Program-made: the position numbers and the translations under genes | Notes under the pieces: generated by a model | The model's database searches: none | Seen by the model: the letters and a program-made list of their open reading frames with translations, nothing else | Told to the model about the DNA's origin: nothing | DNA from: Streptomyces sp. NBC_00659 | Lineage (GTDB): Bacteria > Actinomycetota > Actinomycetes > Streptomycetales > Streptomycetaceae | Reading direction: 5' to 3' | Length of the DNA: 64,000 bases | Assembly: GCF_036226925.1 (NCBI RefSeq) | Contig: NZ_CP109031.1 | Coordinates: 434,001-498,000, forward strand | Shown: positions 39,936 through 59,179 of the stretch, piece by piece | Position numbering within the stretch: the stretch's first letter is position 1 | Layout of the letters: every line of letters starts with the position of its first letter

Positions 39936-40199
39936 CTTCGGCCTTCACAGGATGCGCACGGGCCGGTTCCGGGGCCATGGACTCGAGGATGGCTCAAGGT
40001 GCATGCAGCAACACACCCGCCGGGATAAAGACCGAACAAGCGTACAAATCTGTGCGTATCAACCAGCCGTGCCGCGGTCCGTCCCCACGGCCGGTCCGCC
40101 CCGCGCCGCGTACCGGCTCCGAACCGTCCGCCAACCACGACCGAACCGGTGCCCCGCACGCTGAGCCCGCACGTCCCGGTGGCCTACGGAGGTGACGAG

Positions 40200-41267
40200 A
40201 TGCGGCTGGCCGAGATCATCGAGCTACGTCCGGTGCCGGCGGCCGGGGTCCTCGCCACCCTCACCAGGCGCTGCCCGCTGAGCTGTGCCCACTGCTCCAC
40301 CTCGTCGGGGCCGCGCGGCGAGGACACCCCGGCCGAGGCACTGCGCCGCTTCGTCGGCGGCTTCGCCCCCGGCGACCGTCCGGAGGTCCTCATGCTCACG
40401 GGGGGCGAGCCGCTGCTGCGGCCCGCGCTCGTGGCGGACCTCGCGGCGCTCGCGGCGGCGGCCGGAACGCGTACGTCGGTACTGAGCGGCATGTTCTTCG
40501 CCGCCGACGGCCGGGTCCCTGCCCGCATCCTGCGCGCCCTGCGGCACGTCGCCCACTTCTCGGCGAGCATCGACGTGTTCCACGAACGTGAAGTACCGCG
40601 CGCCGCGGTCTTTCGCGCGATGCACCGCATCAGGGAAAGCGGAATCGACGTGAGTTTCCACGTGGCGGGAACACCGGCGGACGACGCCTATCTCGCGGAC
40701 ATCACCGCGTCCATTCGTACAGAATTCCACGACCAGGCGGCCGTCCTGGTCAATCACATCCGGCCGGTGGGCCGGGCGGCGGGCTGGGCGTCCGCACGAA
40801 CCGTCCGGTTCCGGGGCGCCGCGGAGGAGAGTTCCTCCGAGTCGCCCCCGGCGCCGTGCGCGATGGCCGCCTGGCCGACCGTGGCCTTCGACGGCACCGT
40901 CGCGGCCTGCTGCAACCAGCGTGTGGTGGACGCCCGACCCGTCCCGGAACACCTGCGCCTGGGGCACATCGCGCAGGACGACTGGGCCACGATACGGCGC
41001 CGCTGCCAGGCCTCTCCCGTGCTGCGCACCATCCGTACCGCCGGAGTCGGATCGTGCGCGGACTGCCGGAGCCTGGCCCGGCGGCCCGCGGCCCTGGACG
41101 CGGCCGAACGGTCCGGTTCGCGCCCCGCGGCCGGGGCCATGGACGCGCTCGGCGCCCGGCTCCAGCACGACGCGGGGGCCGCCTCACTACTGCGACGGTA
41201 CGGAAGCGACCGGTACGCACCGCTCGTGCTGCTCGGCGGTCCCGGGGACGAGGAGGTGTCCGGGTGA
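40200..41267 (+). CDS. Radical SAM enzyme, peptide-modifying type (locus A)
   Basis: 355 residues. [4Fe-4S] motif CPLSCAHC (Cys 25, 29, 32), GGEPLL SAM-binding motif in LMLTGGEPLLRPALV, then a TIM-barrel core. A C-terminal region holds further Cys (APCAMAAWPTVAFDGTVAAC C, GSCADC), a SPASM/twitch-like site for an auxiliary cluster. First gene of six that overlap end to start; the third encodes a 69-residue peptide that is the likely substrate. The start is ATG 40200 with ACGGAGG; an upstream ATG at 40149 lacks a ribosome site. A C-C or C-S crosslink is a plausible product (inference). Confidence 0.85.
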   Translation: MRLAEIIELRPVPAAGVLATLTRRCPLSCAHCSTSSGPRGEDTPAEALRRFVGGFAPGDRPEVLMLTGGEPLLRPALVADLAALAAAAGTRTSVLSGMFFAADGRVPARILRALRHVAHFSASIDVFHEREVPRAAVFRAMHRIRESGIDVSFHVAGTPADDAYLADITASIRTEFHDQAAVLVNHIRPVGRAAGWASARTVRFRGAAEESSSESPPAPCAMAAWPTVAFDGTVAACCNQRVVDARPVPEHLRLGHIAQDDWATIRRRCQASPVLRTIRTAGVGSCADCRSLARRPAALDAAERSGSRPAAGAMDALGARLQHDAGAASLLRRYGSDRYAPLVLLGGPGDEEVSG

Positions 41268-41956
41268 GCCCGTCGGCCGTCGCGAGCCTGCGACTCGAAC
41301 TGTCCCTCGTACGGCCCGTGTTGTGGACCGCCACCGCGCGCATGTGGCGGTCCGACTCCGGGCTCCCCGGCCGCTATCGGCGCTACCTGTGCGCCATGCA
41401 CCAGGTGATCCGTGCCTCCGTTCCGCTCATGGAGCGGGCCGCCACCCGGTGCGAGGCCCTGCCGCGGGACCCGGTGGCACGCCCCCTCGCGCGGTACCTG
41501 CGGGCGCACGCCGAGGAGGAACGCGGCCACGACGACTGGCTGCTCACCGACGCCGCGGCGGCCGGGACGCCGTCGGAGGAGCTGACCGGCACAGTGCCTC
41601 CGGCCCATGTGGCCGCCCTGGTGGGGGCCCAGTACTACTGGATCGAGCACAGTCATCCGGTGGCCCTGCTCGGCTACATCGCGGTACTGGAGGCCAACGC
41701 GCCCGCTCCCGGCCTGGCCGGCCGGCTGGCCCGCGAGACCGGGCTTCCGCCGGCCGCCTTCGAGACCGTACGCCTCCACGCGGACCTCGACGACGGACAC
41801 AGCGCCGACCTGGACCGGCTGATCGAGCGGCTGCCGCTGGACGCCGCACAGCGTTCCCTGGTCGCCGTCAGCGCGCTGCACACGGTCGCCTCCCTCGCCG
41901 AGCTGTTCGACCGCATCACCGCGGCACCAACCGAATGGGAGAGCACCGATGACTGA
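41264..41956 (+). CDS. Heme-oxygenase-fold iron-containing redox enzyme (HDO-like, locus A)
   Basis: 230 residues, all-helical. Motifs HAEEERGHDDWLL near residue 88 and HADLDDGHSADLD near 175, plus Glu in IAVLEANAPA. The pattern of paired ExxxH/HxxxE helices matches the heme-oxygenase-like diiron oxidases (TENA/CADD/PqqC relatives), which oxidise or cleave peptide-bound or free substrates with O2. The GTG start overlaps the radical SAM stop (GTGA), so they are coupled. It likely acts on the same peptide after or before the radical SAM step. Confidence 0.78.
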   Translation: MSPSAVASLRLELSLVRPVLWTATARMWRSDSGLPGRYRRYLCAMHQVIRASVPLMERAATRCEALPRDPVARPLARYLRAHAEEERGHDDWLLTDAAAAGTPSEELTGTVPPAHVAALVGAQYYWIEHSHPVALLGYIAVLEANAPAPGLAGRLARETGLPPAAFETVRLHADLDDGHSADLDRLIERLPLDAAQRSLVAVSALHTVASLAELFDRITAAPTEWESTDD

Positions 41957-42158
41957 CCCCGCACCCGATCGCGACCGCCTCCGCGCGCTGGAGGACGCCG
42001 GGTTCCCCCTGCACAGCCTCTCCCCCGAGCAGCGAGAGGTGCTCCAGGACCTCAGCGCACAGGAGCTGACCCTGTTGCTGGGCCTGAAGGAGCGACTGGA
42101 CGCGGCCGAGCCGGAGGTGCAGGCGCACAGCGAGATCGCCGGCGGAGCGCTGTTCTGA
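41949..42158 (+). CDS. Candidate RiPP precursor peptide (locus A)
   Basis: 69 residues. Leader-like, acidic and helical: LRALEDAGFPLHSLSPEQRE, VLQDLSAQELTLLLGLKERL, then EPEVQAHSEIAGGALF. The pattern 'L..AG.P...LSPEQREVLQ.LS..E...L...K.RL' with an EVxxH motif before a short Gly/aromatic tail resembles small Streptomyces peptides that databases place in 'aroma-sacti' radical SAM clusters (from memory). Its core would be the last 8-9 residues, SEIAGGALF, with a single Phe. The gene overlaps the oxidase by eight bases and the next gene by one. Confidence 0.75.
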   Translation: MTDPAPDRDRLRALEDAGFPLHSLSPEQREVLQDLSAQELTLLLGLKERLDAAEPEVQAHSEIAGGALF

Positions 42159-45100
42159 TGACGGGCGCGATGACCGGCGCCGCGCGCGTGAAGTGCCCGC
42201 GCTGTCCCGAACCCCCACCGGACGGCGCGGCGTTCTGCCCCCGGTGCGGAACCGCGTGCGTGCCCGCGGGCGACGCCGCCGCGGCCGAGGAGCGCCGCGT
42301 GGTGACGGTGCTCTTCTGCGACCTCGTCGGATCCACTGCCCTGTCCGGGCGGCTCGACCCCGAGACCCTGCGCACGGTCACTCTCCGGTACTTCGCGCTG
42401 ATGCGGGCACGGATCGAGGAGCACGGCGGCACGGTGGAGAAGTTCATCGGCGACGCGGTGATGGCGGTGTTCGGGGTGCCCGTGCGCCACGAGGACGACG
42501 CCCACCGGGCGCTCGCAGCGGCGCGCGGCATGGTCACCGGACTCGACGGGCTCAACGCCGAGCTGGAGCGCGAGCACGGCGTGCGGCTCGCCGTGCGCAT
42601 CGGTGTGAACACCGGTGAGGTCGTCGTGAGCGTCGATCCCGCCGCCCGGCAGGCCCTCGTCTCCGGCGAGGTCGTCAACATCGGGGCCCGGCTCGAACAG
42701 CACGCCGGCGCGGGGGACATCCTGATCGGCCCCGCCACGCTCGACGCCGCCGGTCCCTCGGCGGTCACCGAATCCGCGGGATCGCTGTCCCTCAAGGGCG
42801 TCGGAGTCCCCGTCCCGGCCCACCGCCTGGTCGCACTCCACGAGGACGACCCGGAGCGGGTACGCCGGTTCGACACCCCCTTCATCGGACGTGAGCAGGA
42901 ACTGGCCGAACTGCGCCTGCTGTCGCGCAAGCTGGAGACGGACCCGCGTTCGCACCTGGTGACCGTCTATGGCGAGGCGGGCCTCGGCAAGACGCGCCTG
43001 CTGCGCGAGTGGCTGCGGGACGGCCCGGCGTACGGCGAGGGCCGATGCCGGCCCTACGGCGAGTCCGGCTCCCTGTCACCGCTCGCCGAAGCGGTGCGCC
43101 AGGTGCTCGCCGCCGTCGGCGAGGACACGGCCCTCGCCGCGCTGCCGGCCCCCGAGCGGGCGGAGGCGGAACAGGCGCTGCGCCTGCTGCGGACCGGTCT
43201 GCTCGCGGACGGCACGCCCAGCCCTTCGGCGGACGACACCCTCATGGCCCTGGCCTGCCTCCTGGACGCGCTGTCCCGTGAGCGGCCCGTGGTGCTGGTG
43301 CTGGACGACTGCCACTGGGCGTCCGGGCCGCTGCTCGACCTGGCGGACCGGCTGCTGGACGAACTCGACCGCTCCCCCGTGGCCCTGGTCTGCGTCGCGC
43401 GTCCCGAGCTCCTGGAGACCCGTCCCGGCTGGGGCAGCGGGCGGATGCGGTCCGCGTCGCTGCTGCTCACACCGCTCACCCGGGAGGAGGCCGCCGCACT
43501 CGCCGGGGAGCTGGTCGAGGTGGCGGCCCACCGGCAGGACGTGCTGGAGGGCGCGCTCGACCGCGCCGAGGGCAATCCGCTGTACCTGGAACATCTGACG
43601 GCGATGGCCGCCGAGGGCGACGACCTGCCGCTGACCGTGCACGCCCTGCTCGGGGCCCGCATCGACGCGCTGCCGCCCGAGGAGCGGACGCTGCTGCAGG
43701 TGGCCGCCGTCCTGGGAAGGGAGTTCCAGCGCGCCGACCTGACCGAACTGGCCACCGTCGAGGAGCCCGGAGACCCGGCGGAGTCCCCCGGCGGCCTGCT
43801 GCGCGGCCTCGTGCGACGGCGGCTCATCGAGGCCGGCGGCCGCGCCCGGTCCACCGGCTCCGTACTCCGGTTCGGCAGCGCGCTGGTGCAGGAGACCGCG
43901 TACCGCGGGATGGCCAAGAAGGTACGTGCCCGGCGCCACGAGCACGCCGCCCGGGTCCTCGTCCGCCACGAAGCGGGCGACGCCGCCGTCGGCTCCCATC
44001 TGGCCCGCGCCCACCGTCTGCTCAGCGAACTGGGCATCCACGACGGCGACACCGACGCGTTGCGGACTCGCGCCGCCGCCCTGCTCACCCGGGCCGGTGC
44101 GGCCGCCCTGGCGCGTTCCGACCTGCCGTGGGCCGACGACCTGCTCACCCAGGCCCTGGACCTGGCCGCTCCCGGCGAGCCCGTCGCCCGCGCGGCCGCC
44201 CGCCGGCTCGGCGAGACGAAGGCCGCCCGCGGTGAGCCCGAGCGCGGCCGGGAACTGCTGGCGGACGCGCTCGACGCGGCGGACCGGGCCGGGGATCCGC
44301 TGGACGCCGCCCATGCCCGGCTCGCGCTGACCGCGCTCGACCCCCGGCACGGTTCCGCGGCCGAGGTGGCGCAGGCCGCCCTCCCGCTGTTCGACCGGGC
44401 GGGCGACGACCAGGGCATCGCCCGTGCCTGTGTCCGTATCGCCCAGGACCGTCAGCGGCGCGGACTGCACGCCGAGGCCGAGGAATTGCTCCACCGGGCC
44501 CTGGAGCACGCCGACCGTGCCGACGCCGAACCCGAACGGGCACTGGCGCTCGGCGCGGTCGGCATCTCCCTGTGGCGTGGACCCACCCCGGTCGCGCTTG
44601 CCGTCGGGCGCTGCGAGGAACTGCTGTCGGCCCACGGCGCCGGCCGACCGACCGTGCGCGCCACGCTGGGCTGCCCGCTCGCCGTGCTCCTGGCGCTGCA
44701 GGGCCGGCACGAGGAGGCACACGAGCGGCTGGCCGAGGCGGCGCGACTGGCGCGCGGTCTCGGTTACGCGGAGAGCGCGTTGTTCATCCCGCTGTTCGCC
44801 GCGGAGGTCGAGGTCCTGAGCGGTACACCGGCCCGTGGTCTGGCCCTGCTGGAGGAGGCGGAACGCGCGGGCCGCGAACTCGGCGCCACGGGCGCCCTGC
44901 CGGGCATCGCCCGGGAGCGGGCGCGGATCCTGCTGGACCGGGGAGAGCCGGCGCAGGCACTGGCTCTGCCGGACCCCGAGCGGTCCGCGCTGCCCCCGGC
45001 CGAGTCCGCCGACGCGTACGGACTGCGGGCCCGTGCTCTGGCGCTCGCCGGTGAGCCGGACCTGGCGCGTGTCTGCGCGGGCCGGGCCGTCGCCGCGGCG

Positions 45101-45334
45101 GGTGAGACGGACTCCCCGGTCGTACGGGGCACCGCGGCCCTCGACCTCGCTCACACGCTGCGCGCACTCGGCCTGGCCGCGGACGCGGCGCGGGAAGCGC
45201 ACACGGCACGGGGGCACTTCGCCGCCAAGGGGCACCGGCCGGGCACGGACGGCGCGTCCGTGTTCGCCGACGAGACGACGGCCACGGTCCGGGGCGCGGA
45301 ACGCCCGGCCGGACGGGAAGGCAGGACCGGATGA
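42158..45334 (+). CDS. Zinc ribbon-cyclase domain-ATPase-TPR regulatory protein (locus A)
   Basis: 1058 residues. A zinc ribbon (CPRCPEPPPDGAAFCPRCG, residues about 13-31) precedes a class III nucleotide cyclase domain (VVTVLFCDLVGSTALSGRLD, FIGDAVMAVFGVP). An AAA/STAND ATPase follows (Walker A YGEAGLGKTRLLREW, Walker B VVLVLDDCHWASG), then about 400 residues of TPR-like helices. No DNA-binding HTH is present, unlike LAL regulators. Such cyclase-STAND proteins are signal-transducing ATPases; the cyclase metal Asp residues (CDLVGS, GDAVM) are kept, so cAMP production is possible. The ATG overlaps the peptide stop (TGATG). Confidence 0.85.
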   Translation: MTGAMTGAARVKCPRCPEPPPDGAAFCPRCGTACVPAGDAAAAEERRVVTVLFCDLVGSTALSGRLDPETLRTVTLRYFALMRARIEEHGGTVEKFIGDAVMAVFGVPVRHEDDAHRALAAARGMVTGLDGLNAELEREHGVRLAVRIGVNTGEVVVSVDPAARQALVSGEVVNIGARLEQHAGAGDILIGPATLDAAGPSAVTESAGSLSLKGVGVPVPAHRLVALHEDDPERVRRFDTPFIGREQELAELRLLSRKLETDPRSHLVTVYGEAGLGKTRLLREWLRDGPAYGEGRCRPYGESGSLSPLAEAVRQVLAAVGEDTALAALPAPERAEAEQALRLLRTGLLADGTPSPSADDTLMALACLLDALSRERPVVLVLDDCHWASGPLLDLADRLLDELDRSPVALVCVARPELLETRPGWGSGRMRSASLLLTPLTREEAAALAGELVEVAAHRQDVLEGALDRAEGNPLYLEHLTAMAAEGDDLPLTVHALLGARIDALPPEERTLLQVAAVLGREFQRADLTELATVEEPGDPAESPGGLLRGLVRRRLIEAGGRARSTGSVLRFGSALVQETAYRGMAKKVRARRHEHAARVLVRHEAGDAAVGSHLARAHRLLSELGIHDGDTDALRTRAAALLTRAGAAALARSDLPWADDLLTQALDLAAPGEPVARAAARRLGETKAARGEPERGRELLADALDAADRAGDPLDAAHARLALTALDPRHGSAAEVAQAALPLFDRAGDDQGIARACVRIAQDRQRRGLHAEAEELLHRALEHADRADAEPERALALGAVGISLWRGPTPVALAVGRCEELLSAHGAGRPTVRATLGCPLAVLLALQGRHEEAHERLAEAARLARGLGYAESALFIPLFAAEVEVLSGTPARGLALLEEAERAGRELGATGALPGIARERARILLDRGEPAQALALPDPERSALPPAESADAYGLRARALALAGEPDLARVCAGRAVAAAGETDSPVVRGTAALDLAHTLRALGLAADAAREAHTARGHFAAKGHRPGTDGASVFADETTATVRGAERPAGREGRTG

Positions 45335-46191
45335 CCACAGGAACGGCGGGAGGGCTCACCTGGAGCCTGCGTGACCGCTCCCCCGAGGACCTCACGATGC
45401 TCGCCGACACGGTGCCGGATCTGCCCGCCGATCCCTCGGCGTGGTCGGACGGCGCCGGGGTGCGGGTGTGCGTGGTCGACACCGGGGTGGAGTGCGGCCA
45501 TCCCTCGGTCGGCGCTGTCCAGGGCTCGTACGAGGTGTCGTCCGCCCCCGACGGCACCCTGCGCGTCGTCGACAGCGGCCCGCTGCCCGACGGCGCCGGC
45601 GACGGCTGCGGGCACGGAACGGCGTGCGCCGGCATCGTCCGGCGCGTGGCACCGGGCTGTGAGCTGTACAGCGTGCGGGTGCTGGGCGAGGGCTTCACCG
45701 GCACGGGCGAAGCCCTGCTCACCGGGTTGCGGTGGGCCGTCGACCAGGGTTTCGACGTGGTCAACCTCAGTCTGTCCACGACCCGTCCGAAGTTCCTCGA
45801 AACGCTGCGGGCCCTGGCCGACCAGGCGTTCTTCACCGGGACCACGCTCGTGGCGTCCGCCCACAACACGCCGGTGGAGAGCTTCCCCTGGCGGTTCTCG
45901 TCCGTCATCTCGGTCGGTACGCACCGCGAGGACGACTCCGGGCTCTTCCTCTACAACCCGGCGCCACCCGTCGAGTTCTTCGCACCGGGCCAGAACGTGC
46001 AGGTGGCCTGGACGGGCGGCAAGACCATCCGCACCACGGGCAACAGCTTCGCCACCCCCTTCATCAGCGGGATGTGCGCACGCCTGCTCGGCACGCACCC
46101 GAAGCTGACACCGTTCCAGATCAAACACGCGCTCTACCTCTCCGCCGCGAACGTGCGCATCGGCGAACCAGGAACCCGAGGTGAATCATGA
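45331..46191 (+). CDS. S8 (subtilisin-like) serine peptidase, cytosolic (locus A)
   Basis: 286 residues. Catalytic Asp in VCVVDTGVECGHP, His in GCGHGTACAGIVRRVA and Ser in TTGNSFATPFISGM; the oxyanion Asn is probably in VASAHNTPVE. No signal peptide or propeptide, so it is intracellular. This fits release of a leader peptide from the modified 69-residue precursor, or processing of the peptide during export. ATG overlaps the upstream stop by four bases (ATGA). Confidence 0.85.
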   Translation: MTTGTAGGLTWSLRDRSPEDLTMLADTVPDLPADPSAWSDGAGVRVCVVDTGVECGHPSVGAVQGSYEVSSAPDGTLRVVDSGPLPDGAGDGCGHGTACAGIVRRVAPGCELYSVRVLGEGFTGTGEALLTGLRWAVDQGFDVVNLSLSTTRPKFLETLRALADQAFFTGTTLVASAHNTPVESFPWRFSSVISVGTHREDDSGLFLYNPAPPVEFFAPGQNVQVAWTGGKTIRTTGNSFATPFISGMCARLLGTHPKLTPFQIKHALYLSAANVRIGEPGTRGES

Positions 46192-46799
46192 GCCAGTCCC
46201 CCGGCCTCGTCCCCGCCCCAGGCGTGGACCCCGCGACAGGCGCCGGCAGCGCGGAGCACGATCTGCTGCAGTCCGTCGTCGACACCGCGCGGGCCATCTT
46301 CGGCGCCGCGGCCAGCTCCGTCCTGCTGCACGACCGGGAGACCGACGAGCTGGTCTTCCAGGCCGTGGCCGGGGAGGGAGAGGACTCCCTCGTGGGCTCG
46401 AGGTTCCCCGCAGGGCGGGGCCTTGCGGGCTGGGTGCTCGTCTCGGGTGAACCCATGATCGCGGACGACCTCCGGGAACAGAGCATGTTCGCCGAGGATG
46501 TCGCGAAGTCGACCGGGTACGTGCCGGACGCGCTGATGGCGGCGCCGCTCGCCCATCGCGACCGGGTGCTCGGTGTCCTCGAAGTTCTCGACCCCGCCGA
46601 ACAGTCCCGTTCCAGCCTCTCCGAACTCGACCTCCTGGCCCTCTTCGCCCGTCAGGCCGCGGCGGCGCTCGCGGTCATCGCCGACCGGCGCCACGAGGAG
46701 ACACCGTCGGCGGTACGGGCGCGGGGCCTGGAACTGGTCGCGGCGCTGCGGGACGTACTGCTCGAAGGAGTGCCGCCGCAGGGGTCGCACGAGGGGTGA
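46188..46799 (+). CDS. GAF-domain protein (locus A)
   Basis: 203 residues. GAF signature: SSVLLHDRETDELVFQAVAG, GRGLAGWVLVSGEPMIADDL, then APLAHRDRVLGVLEVLDP. The N-terminal 20 residues are low in complexity; no output domain follows, so it probably senses a small ligand and acts through a partner, such as the cyclase-ATPase. The ATG overlaps the S8 stop by four bases. Last gene of the unit. Confidence 0.82.
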   Translation: MSQSPGLVPAPGVDPATGAGSAEHDLLQSVVDTARAIFGAAASSVLLHDRETDELVFQAVAGEGEDSLVGSRFPAGRGLAGWVLVSGEPMIADDLREQSMFAEDVAKSTGYVPDALMAAPLAHRDRVLGVLEVLDPAEQSRSSLSELDLLALFARQAAAALAVIADRRHEETPSAVRARGLELVAALRDVLLEGVPPQGSHEG

Positions 46800-49618: not shown

Positions 49619-50740
49619 TCAGTGTGCCGCCGATTCCACGGCGTCGGCTGCGCGGGTTTCGCTCTTGCCCTCGGCGAGCAGGCCGCCGATCTCCTCGGCG
49701 CGCGCCCTCAGTCGGGGATCGCGCGCTGTCGCCTCGACCGCGGCCCGCAGTTCCGCGGCGGAAGCACCCGGCTCCGGCAGCCTGCGGGCGACGCCGGCGC
49801 GCAGGCAGCCGGCGGCGAGGACCTGCTGCTCGGACCCGTTGGGGGCGACGAGCAGCGGCTTGCCGCGCAGGAGGGCGGCGAGTACGGGGGCGGAGGTCGC
49901 GTTCGTCAGTACGAGGTCGGCCCGGTCGACGAGTGGGCCCATCCAGGGGCGGCGGCCGACGATCAGGTCGGCGTCGGCGGCGGCCTCGGGCGCACCCGAC
50001 CGTCCCAGTTCCACGACGGCCCGGTAAGTGCCCGCGGTGAAGGCCGCGTTGAGCCGCGGCCAGAGGGAAGCGCCGCCGAAGGTCCGGCCGAGATGGACGT
50101 AGGCCAGGGGTTTGGAATCCGGCAGCGGTTCGGTGGACGAAGGCTCAGGCTCCCACCAGCAGGGACCGACATGCCGTACGGCCGGGGGCAGTTCGGCGTC
50201 GGCCGGTTCCAGAACGGGGTGGCCGCGCAGCAGGAAGGTGGTGCCGAGCAGCGGGGTGTCGGGGAAGCGGTCGTGCCGTGGGGCGAGGCCGGCCGCCTCT
50301 CGTACCGCTCGGTAGTGCTTCAGGGTCTCCGTGAGCCGCCACGCGCGGTCGTGCGCGTCCGCCGGCCCGGCACCGCCGTCGCGGTAGGGCCACAGGTGTG
50401 CCGCCAGTCCGAGCACCACGACCGGCAGGCCGACGGCCTCGGCGGCCACGAGCGCGCCGTGGCAGAGCACGGAGGTGACCAGGACGTCGGGCCGCAACCG
50501 CCGCACCGCCCGCGCCACCTCGGTGTGCTGCTCGGGGGCACGGACCGTCCATTGGGCCACCGACAGGGCTGTGGCGTCGGTGACGGCGGACACCTCCAGA
50601 CCCGCCGCGGTCGCAGGCGGAGCGGCTCGCGGCCCGGCGAGGACGTGCACCGTATGGGCGCGGCGGCGCAGTTCGCGGCCGACCGCGAGGGCGGGGTACA
50701 GGTAGCCCGGGTCGTTGAGCGGGCACAGCAGCACGTTCAT
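49619..50740 (-). CDS. GT-B (family 1-like) glycosyltransferase (locus B)
   Basis: 373 residues. N-domain NVLLCPLNDPGYLYPALAVG RELRRRAHTVHVLAG; C-domain with VVELGRSGAPEAAADADLIV, VDRADLVLTNATSAPVLAAL LRGKPLLVAPNGSEQQVLAAG. This is the NDP-sugar-binding half of MGT/GT1 enzymes; the usual HGG is replaced by TNATS. Antibiotic glycosyltransferases of this class add deoxysugars or glucose. Last gene of the minus-strand unit, ATG one base after the POP stop. It might glycosylate the peptide on Cys, Ser or His (inference). Confidence 0.85.
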   Translation of the reverse strand: MNVLLCPLNDPGYLYPALAVGRELRRRAHTVHVLAGPRAAPPATAAGLEVSAVTDATALSVAQWTVRAPEQHTEVARAVRRLRPDVLVTSVLCHGALVAAEAVGLPVVVLGLAAHLWPYRDGGAGPADAHDRAWRLTETLKHYRAVREAAGLAPRHDRFPDTPLLGTTFLLRGHPVLEPADAELPPAVRHVGPCWWEPEPSSTEPLPDSKPLAYVHLGRTFGGASLWPRLNAAFTAGTYRAVVELGRSGAPEAAADADLIVGRRPWMGPLVDRADLVLTNATSAPVLAALLRGKPLLVAPNGSEQQVLAAGCLRAGVARRLPEPGASAAELRAAVEATARDPRLRARAEEIGGLLAEGKSETRAADAVESAAH

Positions 50741-50741
50741 G

Positions 50742-52871
50742 TCAGGCGTCCCCCGACAGTGGAAGGCCCAGATGGTGGGCGAAGAAGGCCATGACGTCCG
50801 CGTAGAGGCGGGCGCTGCGCGAGGCGGCACGCGCGCCGTGTCCGACGCCGTGCTCGGTGCGCAGCACGACCGGCGCGTCCCCGGTACCGGCCCGTTGCAG
50901 GGCGGCGCACATCTTGCGTGCGTGCGCGGGGTCGACGCGTGTGTCGCCGTCGAAGACGGCCAGCAGTACGGCCGGGTAGCGCGCGCCCTCGCGGACCTGG
51001 TGGTAGGGCGAGTACGACAGGAGCCGGGCGAACTGAGCGGGGTCCGCGGCGCTTCCGTACTCGTCGCGCCAGCTCGCCCCCATCCCCGACAGTTCGTAGC
51101 GCACCATGTCGAGCAGGGGTGCCGCGCAGACGACGGCCGCGTAGGTCTCCGGACGGCGGGTGAGCGCGGCGGCGGCCAGCAGGCCGCCGTTGGAGCTGCC
51201 GAGGACGCCGAGCCGGCCGGGCGCGGCCCATCCGTCACGGAGCAGATGGTCCGCCGCGGCGTCGAAGTCGTCGAAGGTGTTGAGCTTGTGCTCGCGGCGC
51301 CCGGCGCGGTGCCACTCCTCCCCCTCCTCTCCCCCGCCTCGCACGCAGGCCACCGCGTACACGCCGCCCGCGCGCACCCAGGGCACGGCCTGGGGGGTGA
51401 AGCCGGGGGTCATCGAGGCGCCGAAGCCGCCGTAACCGGTGAGGACGGCGGGGCGGGGTCTGTCGGGGCGGCCCGTGGGGGACATCACGAACATGCGCAC
51501 CTCGGTGCCGTCGCGGGAGCGCAGGACCTCCTGGGTGACGTTCACGCCTTCGACGGGGGCCACCGCCGGGAAGTGGCCGGGCCAGGGGCTCAGGCGTTCG
51601 GCGGCGGCGTCGTAGTACAGGACGACGGTGGGCGTGACGTGGTCGGTGTACGCGAACCAGAGTTCGTGGCCAGGCTTTTGACGTGCGGTCAAGGAGGTGA
51701 TCGTCCCTCGTCCGGGCAGGGGTACGGTCCCGGTACGGGCGCCGGTCCGGGCGTCGTGCAGGGTCAACTCGCCGACGGCGTGCCGGGTTCGTACGACCGC
51801 CAGCAGGGTCCGGTCCAGCGCCGGGCCGTCCAGGACCGCGAAGTCCTGGAGTACGGTGCCGGGTTGCTCGGGGACCAGGGTGCGCCACCGGCGCGGATCC
51901 GTGGCGCCGGGAGACGCTGCGGCGATCCGGCCGCGCGGCGCGCCGGCGGTGGTCCTCAGCAGCAGCGGTCCCCCGCCCGGCCTGAGGCGGACCGCGGTGT
52001 GGCCGTCGGTGCCGTGCTGGAGGCGGCGCAGGTCGGGCCGGTGGGGACCGGTCCCGGTCAGGTCTGCGGTCCAGAGATCGGTGCGCGGGGAGGTGCCCTC
52101 GCTGGCGCCGACGGCCAGGAGCCGGCCGTCGGGGGCGGTGGCCACGGTGTAGTACTGGGTGTCCGACCGTCCGGCCCCGAAGATCTCCGCGTCCTGGTCG
52201 GCCGGTGTGCCGACCTGGTGCAGATACACGCGGCGGCAGGGCCCCGCCCCGGCGGCCGGGTGCCCGGACGGGAGGCGGCGTACGTAGTAGAAGGCCCGGC
52301 CGCCCGGCAGCCATGCCACGGGGGAACGGCGGACCCGGTCCACGGGCCCGTCGAGCGTCCGGCCCGTCGCCGTGTCGAGCACACGCAGCATCGAGTGCTC
52401 CGTACCGCCCGAGGACAGCTGGACGGCGACGAGGTCGCCCTCCCAGGAGGGTTCCCAGGCGTCGAGGACCGTCGTACCGGACGGATCGGTGTCCAGCGGG
52501 TCGAGCAGGATCCGCGTCCGGCCGGCCTCGCGCACGGCCAGCACGGCGAGTTCGCGCCCGGGTTCCCTGCGCAGGTGGAACTCCCGCCCGCCGCGCGCCA
52601 CCGGCGGACGGGCGCCTCCTGCGGCGAGCAGGGCGGTCATCCGCACGAGCAACGCATCCCGGGCCGGCCAGCGGACCTCCTCCTCGGCGTAGAGCAGATC
52701 CTGGGCGGCGCACCACGCGGCGGTGGCTGGGTCCTGCGGATCCTCCAGCCAGCGGTAGGGGTCGGCCACCCGCACTCCGTGGATGATCTCCTCCGGTCCG
52801 CTGCGCGGGGCGGGCGGGTAGGTGTACGGGGCGGGCGCCGACCTGGCGTCGCGGGGCGGGGACTGGGTCAT
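50742..52871 (-). CDS. Prolyl oligopeptidase (S9) family peptidase (locus B)
   Basis: 709 residues, typical for the family. Beta-propeller gating domain (about 50-420), then alpha/beta hydrolase. Nucleophile GSSNGGLLAAAALTRR, Asp in FDGDTRVDPAHARKM, His in EHGVGHGARAASRS. Signature LNTFDDFDAAADHLLRDG is present. S9A enzymes cleave small peptides after Pro or related residues and are used as leader peptidases in some RiPP pathways. No signal peptide, so cytosolic. GTG 52898 is an alternative start, adding nine residues; ATG 52871 has GGAG seven bases upstream. Confidence 0.85.
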   Translation of the reverse strand: MTQSPPRDARSAPAPYTYPPAPRSGPEEIIHGVRVADPYRWLEDPQDPATAAWCAAQDLLYAEEEVRWPARDALLVRMTALLAAGGARPPVARGGREFHLRREPGRELAVLAVREAGRTRILLDPLDTDPSGTTVLDAWEPSWEGDLVAVQLSSGGTEHSMLRVLDTATGRTLDGPVDRVRRSPVAWLPGGRAFYYVRRLPSGHPAAGAGPCRRVYLHQVGTPADQDAEIFGAGRSDTQYYTVATAPDGRLLAVGASEGTSPRTDLWTADLTGTGPHRPDLRRLQHGTDGHTAVRLRPGGGPLLLRTTAGAPRGRIAAASPGATDPRRWRTLVPEQPGTVLQDFAVLDGPALDRTLLAVVRTRHAVGELTLHDARTGARTGTVPLPGRGTITSLTARQKPGHELWFAYTDHVTPTVVLYYDAAAERLSPWPGHFPAVAPVEGVNVTQEVLRSRDGTEVRMFVMSPTGRPDRPRPAVLTGYGGFGASMTPGFTPQAVPWVRAGGVYAVACVRGGGEEGEEWHRAGRREHKLNTFDDFDAAADHLLRDGWAAPGRLGVLGSSNGGLLAAAALTRRPETYAAVVCAAPLLDMVRYELSGMGASWRDEYGSAADPAQFARLLSYSPYHQVREGARYPAVLLAVFDGDTRVDPAHARKMCAALQRAGTGDAPVVLRTEHGVGHGARAASRSARLYADVMAFFAHHLGLPLSGDA

Positions 52872-52922
52872 CGCGGCGCTCCAGGGAGAACGGATCACGT
52901 CGGTCGCGTGAGGGGGACGGGC

Positions 52923-54533
52923 TCAGGCGTCACCGGCGCCGGGGCGTTGCGCGGGGGACGCCGGAGACGGGTCCTCGGGCCCGGAGCCGTCGGCCGGGGC
53001 CGGTTCGCCGTGCGCCTCGACCGCCGGCCGCTCGGCACGGCTCGTGCCCGCGAGGGCCGGAGTGTTCAGGAAGCCGGAGGAAGCGATGGTGTCCACGGGC
53101 TCGGGCGCGTCCGGGAGACCGGCGGGACGGGCACTTCTCGCGTCGGCCGCCACGGCGTCGAGGTCGGACCTGATCGCGTCGGTGGCGACGGCGTCGAGGC
53201 CGGACCTGATCGCGTATGGGGCGTCGGCGTCGGGGCCGGTCTTCCTCGCCTTGTCCTCCATGGCATCGGGGCCGGTCCTCTTCGCCTTGTCCTCCACGGC
53301 ATCGAGGCCGGTCTTCTTCGCGTCGTCCGTCACGGCGTCGAGGCTGGTCTCGCGCAGCAGGGGCACGGAGGACACCACCGTGACGACCGCCGCGGTTCCG
53401 GCGAGTGCCAGCCAGGTGTGGCTCGCCCCCAGGGAGTCCACGAAGGAGCCGGCCAGGAGCGGTCCGAGGGAGGCGAGACCGGCCATGAGCAGTCCGGTCG
53501 CGGTGCTGACCCTGCCGAGCAGGTCCCGTGGTGCGAGCACCAGCATCGCGCGGCCCACGACGATACCCGCGGGCGGGCTGAAGAAGACGACCACGACCAG
53601 CACGGGGCCGATCGTCCAGGGGTGCGTGGTCCCGGAGAAGACGGCGAGGCCGATCGCCCACACGGCGCCGATGAGCAGGAACAGACGGGCGGCGGGGATC
53701 CTCTTCATCAGCCATGGCGCCGCGGCGGCGCCCAGCATCGCCCCGATGCCCGCGCAGGCCATCACCGCTCCGATCGCCGTCCCCGCGGCGCCGCTCTGCC
53801 GCAGGGAGACGACCATGGTCGTCTGCGCCGCCGCCGAGACGACGTTGATGCCCGCGGCGAACAACAGCGCCGCCAGAAGCGCGCGTTGGTGCGTCAGCCA
53901 GCGCAGCCCGGCCGTGAGCCGGTCGTCGCGGTCGGTCGCGGCGACGTCTCGGGGAGGTTTGGTGGCGATCCGCAGCAGCAGCACGGCGGACACCCCGTAG
54001 GAGAAGGCGTCGGCGGCGAACGGCAGCATCGGGTCCATCGTGTACAGCCAGCCGCCGAGGAACGGGCCGATGAGCGAGCTCGTCGCCATGGCAGCCTGGC
54101 TGCGGCTCAGCGCGTCGGTGAGGTCCTTCTCCGGCACCACGTCGCGCACGGCGATCGTGGCCGCGGGTGCGAAGAGCGCGGTGGCCGCGCCCTCGACCAC
54201 GGCGACGCCGAGGAGGTGTACCTGCCCGAGGTCTCCCAGCGCCGACACCAGGGGAATGCTGGCCAGCGCCACGAGTCGTACCAGATCGGTCCCGACCATG
54301 ATCATCCGCCGGTCGAACCGGTCGGCCAGGTGGCCCGCCGGCAGGCGCAGCAGGGTCCGGGTCACCAGCGAAAAGGTCGCGACCGTACCGGCTTGGGCCG
54401 CGCTGCCACCAATGGACAGGACGAGCAGCGGGAAGGCGAGCAACGACAGCTGCGAGCCGAGGGTGGACAGCGTCGAACTGAGCCAGTAGCGGCGGAAGTC
54501 GGCGTTGGTGCGCAGGATGCCGGCGCTCTTCAT
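52923..54533 (-). CDS. MFS exporter with repetitive C-terminal tail (locus B)
   Basis: 536 residues. About 400 residues carry 11-12 TM helices of the DHA3/NarK-like MFS group: the first helix after LRTNADFRRYWLSSTLSTLG, signature GHLADRFDRRMIM in the 2-3 loop, last helices near TAAVVTVVSSVPLL. The tail of about 130 residues has six 12-residue repeats of the form (T/S)G(L/P)DAxxxxAxx and ends in Pro/Ala-rich sequence. The ATG overlaps the radical SAM stop by four bases. Likely exports the mature product or gives self-resistance. Confidence 0.85.
   Translation of the reverse strand: MKSAGILRTNADFRRYWLSSTLSTLGSQLSLLAFPLLVLSIGGSAAQAGTVATFSLVTRTLLRLPAGHLADRFDRRMIMVGTDLVRLVALASIPLVSALGDLGQVHLLGVAVVEGAATALFAPAATIAVRDVVPEKDLTDALSRSQAAMATSSLIGPFLGGWLYTMDPMLPFAADAFSYGVSAVLLLRIATKPPRDVAATDRDDRLTAGLRWLTHQRALLAALLFAAGINVVSAAAQTTMVVSLRQSGAAGTAIGAVMACAGIGAMLGAAAAPWLMKRIPAARLFLLIGAVWAIGLAVFSGTTHPWTIGPVLVVVVFFSPPAGIVVGRAMLVLAPRDLLGRVSTATGLLMAGLASLGPLLAGSFVDSLGASHTWLALAGTAAVVTVVSSVPLLRETSLDAVTDDAKKTGLDAVEDKAKRTGPDAMEDKARKTGPDADAPYAIRSGLDAVATDAIRSDLDAVAADARSARPAGLPDAPEPVDTIASSGFLNTPALAGTSRAERPAVEAHGEPAPADGSGPEDPSPASPAQRPGAGDA
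53133..53348 (-). repeat. Six tandem 36-bp repeats in the MFS gene (12-residue peptide repeat)
   Basis: Encodes TSLDAVTDDAKK, TGLDAVEDKAKR, TGPDAMEDKARK, TGPDADAPYAIR, SGLDAVATDAIR and SDLDAVAADARS in order, cytosolic after the last TM helix. Period exactly 36 bp. The amphipathic D-A-x-x-x-x-A-K pattern favours helices. Confidence 0.85.
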
Positions 54534-55726
54534 CCCAGCCGCCCGACGGCGTGGAGGCTGTCCAGGACTCCGGCGTCGACCCGGTCCTGGAAGACGGCGC
54601 GGACGGCGGCTTCCTCGTCGTACTGGTAGTGGTCGTGGCAGCTGACCCAACGGCCCTTCGTCTGCTCGGCATCGAGATAGCCGTCGGTGATGGTGCCGAC
54701 CTCCATGCCGGGCTTGCCCGCGGTCTCCCAGCAACTGGCCAGGACCCCATCGGCGTTGACGACCGCGCCGTAACGGCCGTCGGCGAAGGAGCAGGCCTGG
54801 CAGGGGACATGGGCGCGCGGACGGGCCACCGTGAAACCGAGTTCCAGTGCGCGGGCGTTCCAGCGGACGAAGTCGTCGACGAGGCCGTTCTCGTGCAGCA
54901 GGTTGTTCGCGTAGCCGACGCCGACGTCGCCGACGCGGGCGAAGTGGATGCCGCAGCGGGCCGGATCGAGCTGTGCGCCGAGCCGTTCGACCAGTTCGTC
55001 GACGCCGTGGCTGTTCAGGTGCGAGACGTTGACCCGCAGCATCCAGCGCAGGGACGTCTTCTCGATGGCGCGCGCGATGTTGGAGACGATGACGTCGAAG
55101 GTGCCGCCTCCGGAGCGGCGTACCCGGATGGCGTCGTGGTCGGCCCGGTCGCCGTCGAAGGTCACCTGTACCGAGCCGAGGCCCGCCGCATTGAGCTCCT
55201 TGGCGATCAGCGGGGTGAGCAGGGTGCCGTTGGACGTCATCGACGCGGTGAGGGCGCCGAGTTCCCCGGCCCTGGTCAGCAGGTCGCGGCAGCCTCGCGG
55301 GTTGAGCAGCGGCTCGCCGCCGAAGAGCAGCAGCGACAGCTTGTCCATGCCGGCCGCCGCCATGCGCTCGCGGGTGAAGTCCAGGACCTGCCCGACGGCT
55401 TCGGGGGTCAGCCGGGCGTGCTGGATGCGGGGCGGCCGGCTTCCTCCCTTGGGGTCCTGGGCGGTGTTCTGGAAGCAGTAGCCGCAGCCGAGGTTGCAGT
55501 CCGTGCTGGTCAGTACGGTCAGCGAGTACGAGTTGTACGGCTTTACGTCGTACAGGCCCGCCTCGCGGAGATAGCGTTCGGCGGAGGGCCGCAGGGTGCC
55601 GTCGGGCTCAATCTGGCCGGGACGCATCAGTGCGTATCCGCCGGCGCCCAGGAACCACCACCCCCTGCCGGCCTGGATCAGACGGGCCCCGGCGGCGGGG
55701 ACGGCGACGGACTGCGTACCGGGCAC
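54530..55726 (-). CDS. Radical SAM/SPASM-type peptide maturase (locus B)
   Basis: 398 residues. [4Fe-4S] motif CNLGCGYC (Cys 77, 81, 84) followed by FQNT, GGEPLL in LLLFGGEPLLNPRGC, and a barrel with VQVTFDGDRADHDAIR. The C-terminal Cys set (VPCQACSFADGRYG, LASCWETAG, GRWVSCHDHY) points to SPASM-type auxiliary clusters. The N-terminal 70 residues may hold a peptide-binding region. GTG 55724-55726 follows GGAGG seven bases upstream; longer frames run antisense to the precursor region. It lies 104 bases downstream of the precursor gene and overlaps the MFS gene. Confidence 0.87.
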   Translation of the reverse strand: MPGTQSVAVPAAGARLIQAGRGWWFLGAGGYALMRPGQIEPDGTLRPSAERYLREAGLYDVKPYNSYSLTVLTSTDCNLGCGYCFQNTAQDPKGGSRPPRIQHARLTPEAVGQVLDFTRERMAAAGMDKLSLLLFGGEPLLNPRGCRDLLTRAGELGALTASMTSNGTLLTPLIAKELNAAGLGSVQVTFDGDRADHDAIRVRRSGGGTFDVIVSNIARAIEKTSLRWMLRVNVSHLNSHGVDELVERLGAQLDPARCGIHFARVGDVGVGYANNLLHENGLVDDFVRWNARALELGFTVARPRAHVPCQACSFADGRYGAVVNADGVLASCWETAGKPGMEVGTITDGYLDAEQTKGRWVSCHDHYQYDEEAAVRAVFQDRVDAGVLDSLHAVGRLG

Positions 55727-55830
55727 GGCAACCTCCGGAGCGGGGGCGGGAGTTGGAGGGCGGGCGCGGCCCGGTCGCGGCGGTGTCAGGCGCCACCGCG
55801 ACCGGGAGGACCGCGCCGGGGGTGAGCCGA

Positions 55831-56106
55831 TCAGGCGTTGTGCTCCTGGTGGACGCCGCACCAGGGGGTGTCCTCGCCCTCCTCGGAGTGGGCGATCACC
55901 TCGGGCTCGTCGACGGCGGACTCCTGGTGCACGCCACACCAGGCGACGTTCGACGCGGCGTGCGCGACCACTTCGGGCTCGTCGACGGCGGACTCCTGGT
56001 GCACCCCGCACCAGGCGACGTTCGACGCGGCGTGCGCGACGACCTCGGGAGTCTCCTCCGCGGGCGTCTCGGTGGTCTCCTCGTTGGGCTCGACGTTCTC
56101 GGCCAT
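55831..56106 (-). CDS. Multicore RiPP precursor with three WCGVHQE repeats (locus B)
   Basis: 91 residues, ATG 56104-56106 with GGAGGACCATC. A very acidic leader (AENVEPNEETTETPAEETP) is followed by three modules: EVVAHAASNVAWCGVHQESA, the same again, and EVIAHSEEGEDTPWCGVHQE HNA. WCGVHQE falls at residues 32-38, 56-62 and 82-88. Only three Cys in the whole peptide, one per module, all between Trp and Gly. A 72-bp DNA repeat underlies modules 1 and 2. The neighbouring radical SAM enzyme, P450, peptidase and glycosyltransferase make a modified, multicore peptide product likely. I do not know a described family with this core. Confidence 0.85.
   Translation of the reverse strand: MAENVEPNEETTETPAEETPEVVAHAASNVAWCGVHQESAVDEPEVVAHAASNVAWCGVHQESAVDEPEVIAHSEEGEDTPWCGVHQEHNA
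55901..56044 (-). repeat. 72-bp tandem repeat in the precursor gene
   Basis: Two nearly identical 72-bp units (about 55901-55972 and 55973-56044) with only a few third-position differences. They encode the 24-residue module with WCGVHQE. Module 3 has diverged between EVIAH and PWCGVHQE. Confidence 0.8.
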
Positions 56107-56494
56107 GATGGTCCTCCATACGACGGGCGTTCGGGACGACGGACGGCAGCGGTGCGCCGACCGGCAGGAAGCTAGGAGGAGGGGGTTCGACACCGGTTCA
56201 CCGCCGGTTGGCCCCTGGTGAAACCCCTGGTGGGCGCGTGGGCTCAGCCCATGGCGGCCGGCCGGAACCGCGACGGAGACGGCCGTGGGGCTGATCCGGG
56301 GTTCGGACGGTCGCTCCCGCTACTGGGGCGGGGCGATGGCATCTCGGGGGTGTCGCCGACGAGGTGGCGCCGCGTCGGCGAGGTGGCGCCGCGTCGGCCG
56401 CATACCGGAATCGCACCGGTCGCGAACCGGCGGGCAACCGGCCGTTCCTACGGTGGCCGCCGCACGCTCCGCGACCGCGAGAGGACGCCTCCGT
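56107..56494. promoter_or_regulatory. Divergent promoter region of precursor operon and P450, with 19-bp repeat
   Basis: 388 bases serving both locus B transcripts. A 19-bp unit, CGAGGTGGCGCCGCGTCGG, is tandemly duplicated at 56360-56378 and 56379-56397 on the P450 side. Near the precursor, GGTTCACC (56196-56203) and GGTGAAACC (56217-56225) form an imperfect inverted repeat. No -10/-35 pair could be assigned with confidence. Confidence 0.45.
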
Positions 56495-57769
56495 ATGGAC
56501 ACCGAGCCCGTCGTCACGGCCGCGCCGTCCCCCCGGCCCGCGCCGTCCGCCCAGCCCGCGGCAACAGGACGGCAGCGGCTGCCGGAGCCGCTCGGGGCCG
56601 GATTCCTGGCCCGTCCGGAGGAGACGCTGGCCGAGATCCGGGAGACGTGTCCCGTGGCCCGGATCAGGACGCCCGCCGGACGGCCGGCCTGGCTGGTGAC
56701 CCGTGCCGAGGATGTGCGGGCCGGGTTCCTGGATCCCCGCCTGTCCTTGAGCGGCGGCCACGTTCCCGACCCCGGCGTGCGCCGACGCGCGCTGGACGTG
56801 ACGCTGGTCAACTACGATCCGCCGGACCACACGCGGATCCGCCGTCTGGCGACCCCGGCCCTCACCCCGGCACGCATGGCCGCCCACCGGGAGCGCATCG
56901 AGGAAGCCGCCGGTGAACTGCTCGACGCGGCGGACGCGGCGCGGGGGCAGGGGCCGCTGGAGCTGATGGACGCCTTCGCGCGCCCGTTCGCGTTCCGGTC
57001 GCTGTGCGAGGTGTTCGAGGTGCGTGAGGAGGAGCGGGCCGCGCTGTACGCACCGGTGGCGCTCCTCGCGGACAAGACGGGCTGCTCCGCTCGCACCGTC
57101 GAGGAGAGCGTGGCTCATATCGACGCGTTCGTCCGCGGCGAGATGGCCCGCCGCGCGGCCGCTCCGGGTGACGACGTCGTCTCGCGCGTCCTCGCGGCCT
57201 GGCGCCAGCAGGGCGGCGCGACCGAGGACGAGGTCGCCTCCCTCCTGGCGATGCTGCTGCTGGCCGGCTTCGACAGCACGGTGCAGGCGATCGGCATGAG
57301 CGTGGTGGCGCTGCTGGGCCACCACGACGTACAGGACTCCCTGCGGGAGGAGCCGTCGCGGATTCCGCGCGCGGTGGACGAGTTGCTGCGCTGGGACACC
57401 CCGGGCCCTTTCAGCACCAAGAGGGTGGCGCTGGAGGACGTCCGGTTCGGGGACACGGTCATTCCGGCGGGCAGCGGAGTCCTGCTCTCCGTGGCGGCGG
57501 CCAACCACGACCCGCGCTGCCATGCCGACCCCGGCACGCTGGACCCGGACCGCAGCACCGCCGGCCGTCATCTGACGTTCGGTCTGGGCCCGCACTACTG
57601 TCCCGGATCGGCGCTGGCCCGCCTGGAGCTCACGGTGGCCCTGACCGTCATCCTCGGCCGCTGGCAACGGCTGGAGCCGGCGGTGCCGCTCAACGAGCTG
57701 GCCTGGGGCGGCGGCTATCTGCACCGCCGTCTGGCCGCACTGCCCGTGCTGCCCCACGGGTCGGGGTGA
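56495..57769 (+). CDS. Cytochrome P450 (locus B)
   Basis: 424 residues. I-helix oxygen motif LLLAGFDSTVQAI, ExxR in AVDELLRWD..., and heme loop FGLGPHYCPGSALARLE with the axial Cys. The first about 45 residues are Pro/Ala-rich and precede the fold at PLGAGFLARPEETLAEIRET CPVARI. ATG 56495 follows GAGAGGA. Bacterial class I P450, soluble, needing ferredoxin supplied elsewhere. Divergent from the precursor, so likely a pathway enzyme: aryl crosslink, hydroxylation or S-oxidation of the Trp/Cys/His cores are options. Confidence 0.88.
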   Translation: MDTEPVVTAAPSPRPAPSAQPAATGRQRLPEPLGAGFLARPEETLAEIRETCPVARIRTPAGRPAWLVTRAEDVRAGFLDPRLSLSGGHVPDPGVRRRALDVTLVNYDPPDHTRIRRLATPALTPARMAAHRERIEEAAGELLDAADAARGQGPLELMDAFARPFAFRSLCEVFEVREEERAALYAPVALLADKTGCSARTVEESVAHIDAFVRGEMARRAAAPGDDVVSRVLAAWRQQGGATEDEVASLLAMLLLAGFDSTVQAIGMSVVALLGHHDVQDSLREEPSRIPRAVDELLRWDTPGPFSTKRVALEDVRFGDTVIPAGSGVLLSVAAANHDPRCHADPGTLDPDRSTAGRHLTFGLGPHYCPGSALARLELTVALTVILGRWQRLEPAVPLNELAWGGGYLHRRLAALPVLPHGSG

Positions 57770-57904: not shown

Positions 57905-59179
57905 TCACACCACGCTGACCGGATGCCGTACCACCGCGCCGAACAGGTATCCCTGTGTGTTCGGTACGGCGGTGTCCGGCTGGGTCCGGTCGGCTGTGTC
58001 CGTGGCGCGCGCCAGCAGCTGGGTGGCGCCGGGTGTGTCGGGCCGCCAATCGAGGGACCACCGGGTCCAGGTGCCGGCCCGGGGCCGGTCGTGCAGCCGC
58101 GCGGGCCGCCAGTTGGCACCGCCGTCCGTACTGACGTCGACCTTGGCGACGCCTCCCGCCCCCGACCATGACCGCCCGTGCAGGACGTGCCTGCTTCCGG
58201 CCGTGAACGTGGCCCCGCTCGCCAGCTCGAAGGCGCTCTTCGTGGCCTGCCGGGTCAGCGGAGCACTCCCGCCCTCGGGATAGGCGGGGCCGAACAGCCG
58301 GTAGAAGGTGGTGTTCCAGGGCGAGTAGAGCGGCTGTGCGGACACCTCGATGTCGCCGACCCACTTGATCGACGCGATCCCCACCCAGGAGGGCACCAAC
58401 ACCCGCACCGGATAGCCGTGGTCGTACGGAAGCGACTCGCCGTTCATCTCGTACGCGAGCAGGACGTCGTCCAGGGCCTTGGCCAGCGGCAGCGGACGTC
58501 GTACCCGCCCCAGGCTCTCGCCGCCGCTGACGTACTCGGCGTCCAGACCGCGCGGCTGCACGTCCACGGCGCGCGGGGACAGCCCTGCCCTGCGCAGCAC
58601 GTCGCCCAGCCGCACTCCGCGCCAGCGTGCGACGCCGATCGCTCCCAGGGTCCACGCGGTGCCGGTGACCGTCTCCCCCTGTTGCGTCGTGTAGTAGGAG
58701 CGGCCGTTCCCGGCGCATTCCACGAACGCTGTCCGGGTGACGGCCGGCAGTGCGCGCAGATCGTCGTAACCGAACTCCACCGGACGGTCCTCGCCGTGGT
58801 TGCCGCGCAACCCGCTCCCCCACAGCCGCAGCCGCCAGTCGTCGGCGTTCAGGACGGGTGTGGCGGTGTGGTTGCGCACGAAGAACAGGTCGTTGGGGGT
58901 GTGGTGGCCGGTTCCGCGCAGCGCCTCCCATCGGGTCTCGGCGTTGGTGCCACGCGCGATGAACCACTCGGCGGGCAGCGGCTTGACGATCGGTGTGTCG
59001 GCGGCGTGGGCGGGCCCCGGGGTGCCGAGTGCGGTTCCGGCGGCGGCAGCGGTGAGCAGGGTGAGCAGCCGACGGCGGGTGACCCCCTCGGCTCTGGCCT
59101 CACCAGCGAGCCACTGGCGCAGCCTGCGGCGGTCGTACTCGGTTTCGTAGCGGCGGCCGGCGGGGGCGGGCGAAGGCAT
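57905..59179 (-). CDS. Tat-exported molybdopterin-dependent oxidoreductase (sulfite oxidase fold)
   Basis: 424 residues. Twin-Arg signal VTRRRLLTLLTAAAAGTALG cleaved near AHA. The sulfite-oxidase fold shows the molybdenum-ligand Cys in AFVECAGNGRSYY, TGTAWTLGAIGVARWRGVRL, and the C-terminal Mo-co dimerization domain (KVDVSTDGGANW). No heme domain. Substrates in this group are sulfite, sulfoxides or other S/N-oxides; folded protein with cofactor is exported. ATG 59177-59179 with GAGGAC. A short leader-peptide ORF lies upstream on the same strand. Confidence 0.87.
   Translation of the reverse strand: MPSPAPAGRRYETEYDRRRLRQWLAGEARAEGVTRRRLLTLLTAAAAGTALGTPGPAHAADTPIVKPLPAEWFIARGTNAETRWEALRGTGHHTPNDLFFVRNHTATPVLNADDWRLRLWGSGLRGNHGEDRPVEFGYDDLRALPAVTRTAFVECAGNGRSYYTTQQGETVTGTAWTLGAIGVARWRGVRLGDVLRRAGLSPRAVDVQPRGLDAEYVSGGESLGRVRRPLPLAKALDDVLLAYEMNGESLPYDHGYPVRVLVPSWVGIASIKWVGDIEVSAQPLYSPWNTTFYRLFGPAYPEGGSAPLTRQATKSAFELASGATFTAGSRHVLHGRSWSGAGGVAKVDVSTDGGANWRPARLHDRPRAGTWTRWSLDWRPDTPGATQLLARATDTADRTQPDTAVPNTQGYLFGAVVRHPVSVV

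Follow-up and report, generated by a model that had tools for sequence, protein, structure and literature searches.

The systems closest to the locus described here are those of ranthipeptides and sactipeptides, two groups of ribosomally synthesised and post-translationally modified peptides (RiPPs). The locus encodes a precursor peptide with three copies of WCGVHQE and was found in a window of 64,000 nt from Streptomyces sp. NBC_00659 (GCF_036226925.1, NZ_CP109031.1, 434,001-498,000). By sequence, it seems to work most like these two systems, and it reaches the cut-off of no named family among those listed. Streptosactin (GggA/GggB) contains unnested Cys to i+3 rings, Cys25-Ser28 and Cys31-Gly34, according to the accessible part of its report (PMC8172795). 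The spacing resembles that of the WCGVHQE family, but the alpha thioethers of streptosactin sit on Ser and Gly. We know of no tag, prolyl oligopeptidase (POP), cytochrome P450 or glycosyltransferase (GT) for streptosactin. Non-alpha thioethers form on Asn, Asp and Thr, and in the NxxcA beta-thioether peptide Asn and Cys are three residues apart, as described in the accessible part of a second report (PMC8326336). There, Asn precedes Cys; the acceptor candidates of the WCGVHQE family, Asn among them, follow Cys, which sets its precursors apart from the NxxC peptides. CteB and related ranthipeptide maturases are radical S-adenosylmethionine (SAM) RiPP enzymes with a Cys donor and a polar acceptor. 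Their SCIFF substrates have six Cys in 45 residues, whereas the WCGVHQE precursor has three in 91, one per module with the acceptor at +3, and is not a SCIFF peptide. It also had no hit to the StsA-related (NF045559) or aroma-sacti models; an aroma-sacti domain is present in an adjoining peptide. Class III lanthipeptides are matured by AmyP, an S8 protease with a (T/S/A)EVE motif in its substrate, or by FlaP, a POP cutting after Pro (PMC10885120). An S8 protease with an EVE-type motif and a POP acting after Pro may have counterparts here, the substrates being radical SAM peptides instead.

The WCGVHQE locus is a genuine RiPP locus and belongs to a large actinobacterial radical SAM family. The first-pass annotation had proposed a multicore RiPP-type pathway of a precursor, a radical SAM enzyme (rSAM1), a major facilitator superfamily (MFS) exporter, a POP, a GT and a divergent P450. 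All these genes were confirmed in the sequence, and the pathway is supported by co-conservation of precursor and rSAM1 in the genome set. The precursor ATG is preceded by GGAGG. Nucleotide differences among the three WCGVHQE copies are confined to synonymous positions, which points to selection at the peptide level. The repeat unit is larger than WCGVHQE: each of the three modules consists of PEV(V/I)AH, a spacer and WCGVHQE. A WCG(V/I)HQ peptide with two to three cores lies near rSAM1 in all nine close relatives (L001-L009, rSAM1 86-94% identical), hence the peptide is not a chance reading frame.

A scan of reference genomes with rSAM1 yielded 62 loci. The window, these loci and 30 further regions, minus 10 duplicates, gave 83 distinct loci. 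A gene counted as present if it lay no more than 16 kb from rSAM1; the 62 reference loci span at most ~10 kb per side. It was called absent only where the flanks reached 8.6 kb or more to the left and 5 kb or more to the right, whereas presence was recorded regardless of flank length. Manual curation added peptides of G134, L041, L050 and L051 and removed two unrelated open reading frames (ORFs; L025, L054); the peptide of L047 is doubtful. Candidate precursors were found in 79 of the 83 loci. Three of the four loci without a peptide have a contig end close to rSAM1, and one is an outgroup with 35% identity.

WCGVHQE is real in the window, but it is not the conserved unit, as WCG(V/I)HQ occurs in only 11/83 loci. 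It is one version of a core C-x-x-[N/H/Q/D] (144/171 cores), which is combined across the family with the leader tag EVVAH. The residue at +3 to Cys is Asn in 75 cores, His in 46, Gln in 19, Asp in 4, Tyr in 9, Phe in 7 and another in 11. Radical SAM loci without WCGVHQE, named beforehand as evidence against the pathway, do exist (72/83); 68 of them hold candidate peptides, and the leader motif recurs in nearly all of these; the pathway reading therefore stands. Distant loci have mostly this leader with other cores: multicopy WCFSNSG, WCVINTG and WCGVNTG, a single GCIINNS, or CGVQFG three times, among others. In L050 and L051, the peptides have CGIQIGA cores and lack the tag. In an alignment of 31 short peptides, four positions do not vary (M1, V21, A23, C35) and two hardly do (V22, H24). 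Four loci (L048, L052 (= G096), G126 and G179) have two precursor types, with PWCIG(D/N) adjoining rSAM1 and a multicore CxxQ peptide ~7 kb off. A divergent rSAM1 branch (43-44% identity; G019, G121, G223) has CGV(F/Y)DK cores and a GT.

The co-conservation of precursor and rSAM1, a check suggested by the first-pass annotation, was confirmed in a set of 249 genomes from the family. Of these, 36 have rSAM1 (E 1e-60) and 26 match the precursor profile (E 1e-3); 25 have both, 11 rSAM1 only and one the profile only (Fisher 1e-24). This last genome is 71% complete. Seven of the 11 rSAM1-only genomes were examined (G019, G030, G047, G121, G155, G179, G223), and all seven hold peptides missed by the profile. 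The 30 further regions cover 28 of the 36 rSAM1 genomes; the remaining eight are outside the locus set. An NCBIfam scan of seven family precursors gave none above any cut-off.

The conserved neighbourhood reaches to ~37.9 kb of the window, beyond the unit first proposed. Besides the EVVAH tag, it adds an adjoining second RiPP and a module of an S8 subtilase, a GAF protein and a cyclase. This second locus (40149-46799, plus strand) encodes a radical SAM enzyme (rSAM2), a haem-oxygenase-like enzyme, an aroma-sacti peptide, the cyclase, S8 and GAF proteins. The aroma-sacti precursor (41949-42158) scores 32 bits with NF045559 (cut-off 75). Among 25 aroma-sacti peptides, 20 end with EVxAH...AGGALF; rSAM2 accompanies 14 of these, and the remaining six loci end before the rSAM2 position. 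The other five end with EVEGH and a different tail, and rSAM2 was not found in their loci. In L001-L009, rSAM2 was missed due to the limited flanks of the reference loci. Of the 70 full-flank loci, 58 have the S8 gene no further than 16 kb from rSAM1, and the count for the cyclase is also 58. Of the 249 genomes, 79 have S8 (E 1e-50) and 49 rSAM2; every rSAM1 genome (36/36) and every rSAM2 genome is S8-positive. S8 does not adjoin rSAM1 in G166, G194 and G223, and the link is therefore kept in trans as well.

The tag extends to a third RiPP class. Chosen by hand from S8 hits, mostly in rSAM1-negative genomes, were 38 S8 regions; 11 are without LanKC and 27 hold a class III lanthipeptide synthetase, with RamC_N confirmed in three. 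All 27 class III loci have a tagged precursor (EVxAH in 26, DVxAH in one), e.g., ...TPEVEAHSVLDLQ... These comprise 19 with EVxAH under a strict filter, six under a looser filter, G187 counted once and L179 with DVEAH/DVQAH; the S8 gene of L181 lies on another contig. Class III loci without S8 had no EVxAH or DVxAH precursor (0/39), in a comparison whose loci, in both groups, are not phylogenetically independent. In these controls, another precursor was present in 34 and none was recognised in five; 20 of them had been added because the first 19 were mostly SapB-like. The tag is EVVAH in the WCGVHQE precursor, EVQAH in the second precursor and EVEAH in class III relatives. The latter, observed in L126-L145 and L165-L183 with their genes beside the S8/GAF/cyclase module, have EVEAH before, or EVxAH after, an LxLQ motif. 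In some lanthipeptides (L175, L178, L180) and in aroma-sacti peptides, the tag is located just before the C-terminal segment. The window's own genome has a class III synthetase (G000:C1:612897-613466, L186) without a recognised precursor.

EVxAH is probably an S8 protease tag common to three RiPP classes, as judged from these motifs and neighbourhoods. S8 is the likeliest reader of the tag since S8, GAF and cyclase are common to the RiPP types and the modifying enzymes are not. AmyP may serve as a precedent by analogy: in a comparison of the motifs, EVVAH, EVQAH and EVEAH are similar, not identical, to its (T/S/A)EVE motif. The peptides of S8 regions G103, G085 and G046 speak against a common tag, as they carry EVEGQ or AVEGQ. 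Alternatively, the S8/GAF/cyclase group may be an independent neighbour and EVxAH may serve, for example, enzyme docking or export. This would agree with S8 in 43/249 genomes without rSAM1 and with its separate location in the three genomes named above. It is rather unlikely in view of S8 in all rSAM1 genomes and within 16 kb in most full-flank loci, and because the tag follows S8 over three RiPP types with different modifying enzymes. As a separate observation, the BTAD regulator of the window (37896-39791, minus strand; ORF piece from 38282) contains PEVTAH close to the C terminus, and several regulators of related loci contain GEVTAH, by chance or as a protease site.

rSAM1 has a radical SAM domain (PF04055, E 2e-13). 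The three Cys of CxxxCxxC are kept in 104/105 relatives. Of the C-terminal Cys, C309, C312 and C363 are present in 105/105 and C332 in 100/105; Pfam gave no SPASM hit. The predicted fold is CteB-like, and CteB is the best match in sequence profile and fold; SkfB is also among the fold matches. With NCBIfam maturases, the best score is 107 bits (cut-off 525). Each of the 25 models listed (of 51) stays below its cut-off, which excludes rSAM1 from TIGR04463, CefB, geopeptide, PapB, SCIFF, FxsB and the others listed. In sequence and predicted fold, rSAM1 resembles thioether-forming enzymes, CteB being the nearest.

The best reading of the rSAM1 product is a Cys to i+3 side-chain thioether. A classical sactionine at +3, with the sulfur on the alpha carbon, has the spacing of the streptosactin four-residue rings, Cys25-Ser28 and Cys31-Gly34, in the accessible text (PMC8172795), and SkfB among the fold matches is consistent with it. 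It is nevertheless improbable: Gly and Ala were not seen at +3 (0/171 cores), Ser only in two, and the usual residues have activated side-chain carbons, comparable to the Asn, Asp and Thr of non-alpha thioethers in the portion available (PMC8326336). A three-residue cyclophane is unlikely as the cores have no conserved aromatic residue. Oxidation of Cys or another core residue without crosslinking, as anSME does with Cys or Ser, is very unlikely, since the +3 residue is also constrained and the best rSAM1 sequence matches are RiPP maturases and CteB.

The tailoring genes are optional. The P450, counted at a minimum of 44% identity (a 33%-identity P450 of L056 was left out), is present in 24 of the 83 loci, absent in 47 and unscored in 12. 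Its expected co-conservation is thus limited to a part of the family. In all 24 P450 loci, a core Cys is immediately preceded by Trp or Phe; 10/47 loci without P450 have Trp at that position. The association of the P450 with Trp/Phe is only suggestive because P450 presence changes just three times on the tree. The GT has no Pfam hit and was placed via NCBIfam macrolide GT models (below cut-off) and CalG2. It is present in 59 of the 83 loci, absent from 18 and unscored in six. The suggestion of a sugar on Cys was rejected, as Cys is the likely crosslink donor. Among P450 loci, the GT occurs in 14/15 with His at +3 and 0/8 with Asn; one further locus without GT has Cys at this position (Fisher 2e-5). 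These traits change only two to three times on the tree, and a relation of GT presence to the +3 residue is a lead only. True prolyl endopeptidases are the best match of the POP (2bkl, E 2e-116), with oligopeptidase B far behind (E 8e-41). Of the loci with a POP, 50/55 have Pro or Ala at the second or third position ahead of Cys, against 6/20 of those without (Fisher 5e-7), a pattern defined after data inspection. In 200 draws of independent pairs, a mean of 3.9 agreed, 0.1 were opposite and 2.0 showed no difference (median sign-test p 0.125).

The following pathway is, as a whole, fairly probable. The precursor would be a chain of modules, each with an EVVAH tag, a spacer, Pro or Ala, and a core starting near Trp-Cys. 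rSAM1 may link the Cys sulfur to the side chain at +3, which is His in the window and Asn, Gln or Asp in other loci; a thioether ring of four residues would result. The P450 may then oxidise the Trp adjoining Cys, and the GT possibly adds a sugar. Co-variation suggests that the POP cuts after Pro/Ala directly before the core. The S8 subtilase, judged by co-occurrence, may recognise or cut at EVxAH and release the modules, and the MFS protein is the likely exporter of the product. Sensing and control are probably tasks of the cyclase, GAF and BTAD proteins. The S8 module may serve two further peptide types: the neighbouring aroma-sacti peptide and, in genomes other than this one, class III lanthipeptides that carry the tag.

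We tentatively propose a wider view, with somewhat more doubt than trust. One S8 protease, with cyclase/GAF signalling, would mature three chemically unrelated RiPP types, radical SAM thioether peptides, radical SAM/haem-oxygenase-like peptides and class III lanthipeptides, via a class-independent EVxAH tag, and actinomycetes would combine these in superclusters. In the WCGVHQE subfamily, the staple would be a thioether from Cys to the side chain of His, next to an oxidised Trp.

Table 1. Features of the WCGVHQE locus and its neighbourhood in the window.
Feature	Position	Strand	Remark
Precursor peptide, 91 aa, three modules	55831..56106	-	ORF and comparison with relatives
Core 1, WCGVHQE	55993..56013	-	
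Core 2, WCGVHQE	55921..55941	-	
Core 3, WCGVHQE	55843..55863	-	
Tag 1, PEVVAH	56032..56049	-	Motif common to relatives
Tag 2, PEVVAH	55960..55977	-	
Tag 3, PEVIAH	55888..55905	-	
rSAM1, radical SAM enzyme, 398 aa	54530..55726	-	GTG start after GGAGG
MFS exporter	52923..54533	-	Overlaps rSAM1 stop
POP (S9), GxSxGG present	50742..52871	-	Alternative GTG start 52898
Macrolide-type GT	49619..50740	-	
Cytochrome P450, divergent	56495..57769	+	Haem motif FGLGPHYCPG
rSAM2, second radical SAM enzyme, YydG-like below cut-off	40149..41267	+	
Haem-oxygenase-like enzyme PF14518, start not fixed	41261..41956	+	
Second precursor, aroma-sacti domain, C-terminal end EPEVQAHSEIAGGALF	41949..42158	+	
Cyclase/AAA/TPR protein	42158..45334	+	
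S8 subtilase, proposed EVxAH reader	45331..46191	+	PF00082 E 5e-26
GAF-domain protein	46188..46799	+	
BTAD/NB-ARC regulator	37896..39791	-	

No promoter or terminator consensus was found in 55700-56520. Two flanking genes on the minus strand are probably unrelated to the locus: a SUKH/SMI1-type protein (48809-49294) has a match in L007 only, of the 62 reference loci, and a molybdopterin oxidoreductase (57905-59179) in none.

A published description of the rSAM1/EVVAH peptide family was not found in the open-licence literature. There, WCGVHQE, 'aroma-sacti' and VVAH with RiPP terms had no match, and none of the matches listed for EVEAH, EVVAH or EVQAH was about RiPPs by title. The abstract of Precord et al. 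2023 on StsB reportedly speaks of six further sactipeptide groups; the WCGVHQE family could be one of these.

The most interesting point is the link of EVxAH and S8 across RiPP classes. If true, the RiPPs of actinomycetes would include another family, built on a minimal C-x-x-[N/H/Q/D] ring, and EVxAH together with an S8 gene would be a handle for finding RiPPs across classes. Whether a single protease serves several unrelated RiPP pathways becomes testable. An answer would be useful for RiPP production in foreign hosts, where a missing protease is a common obstacle.
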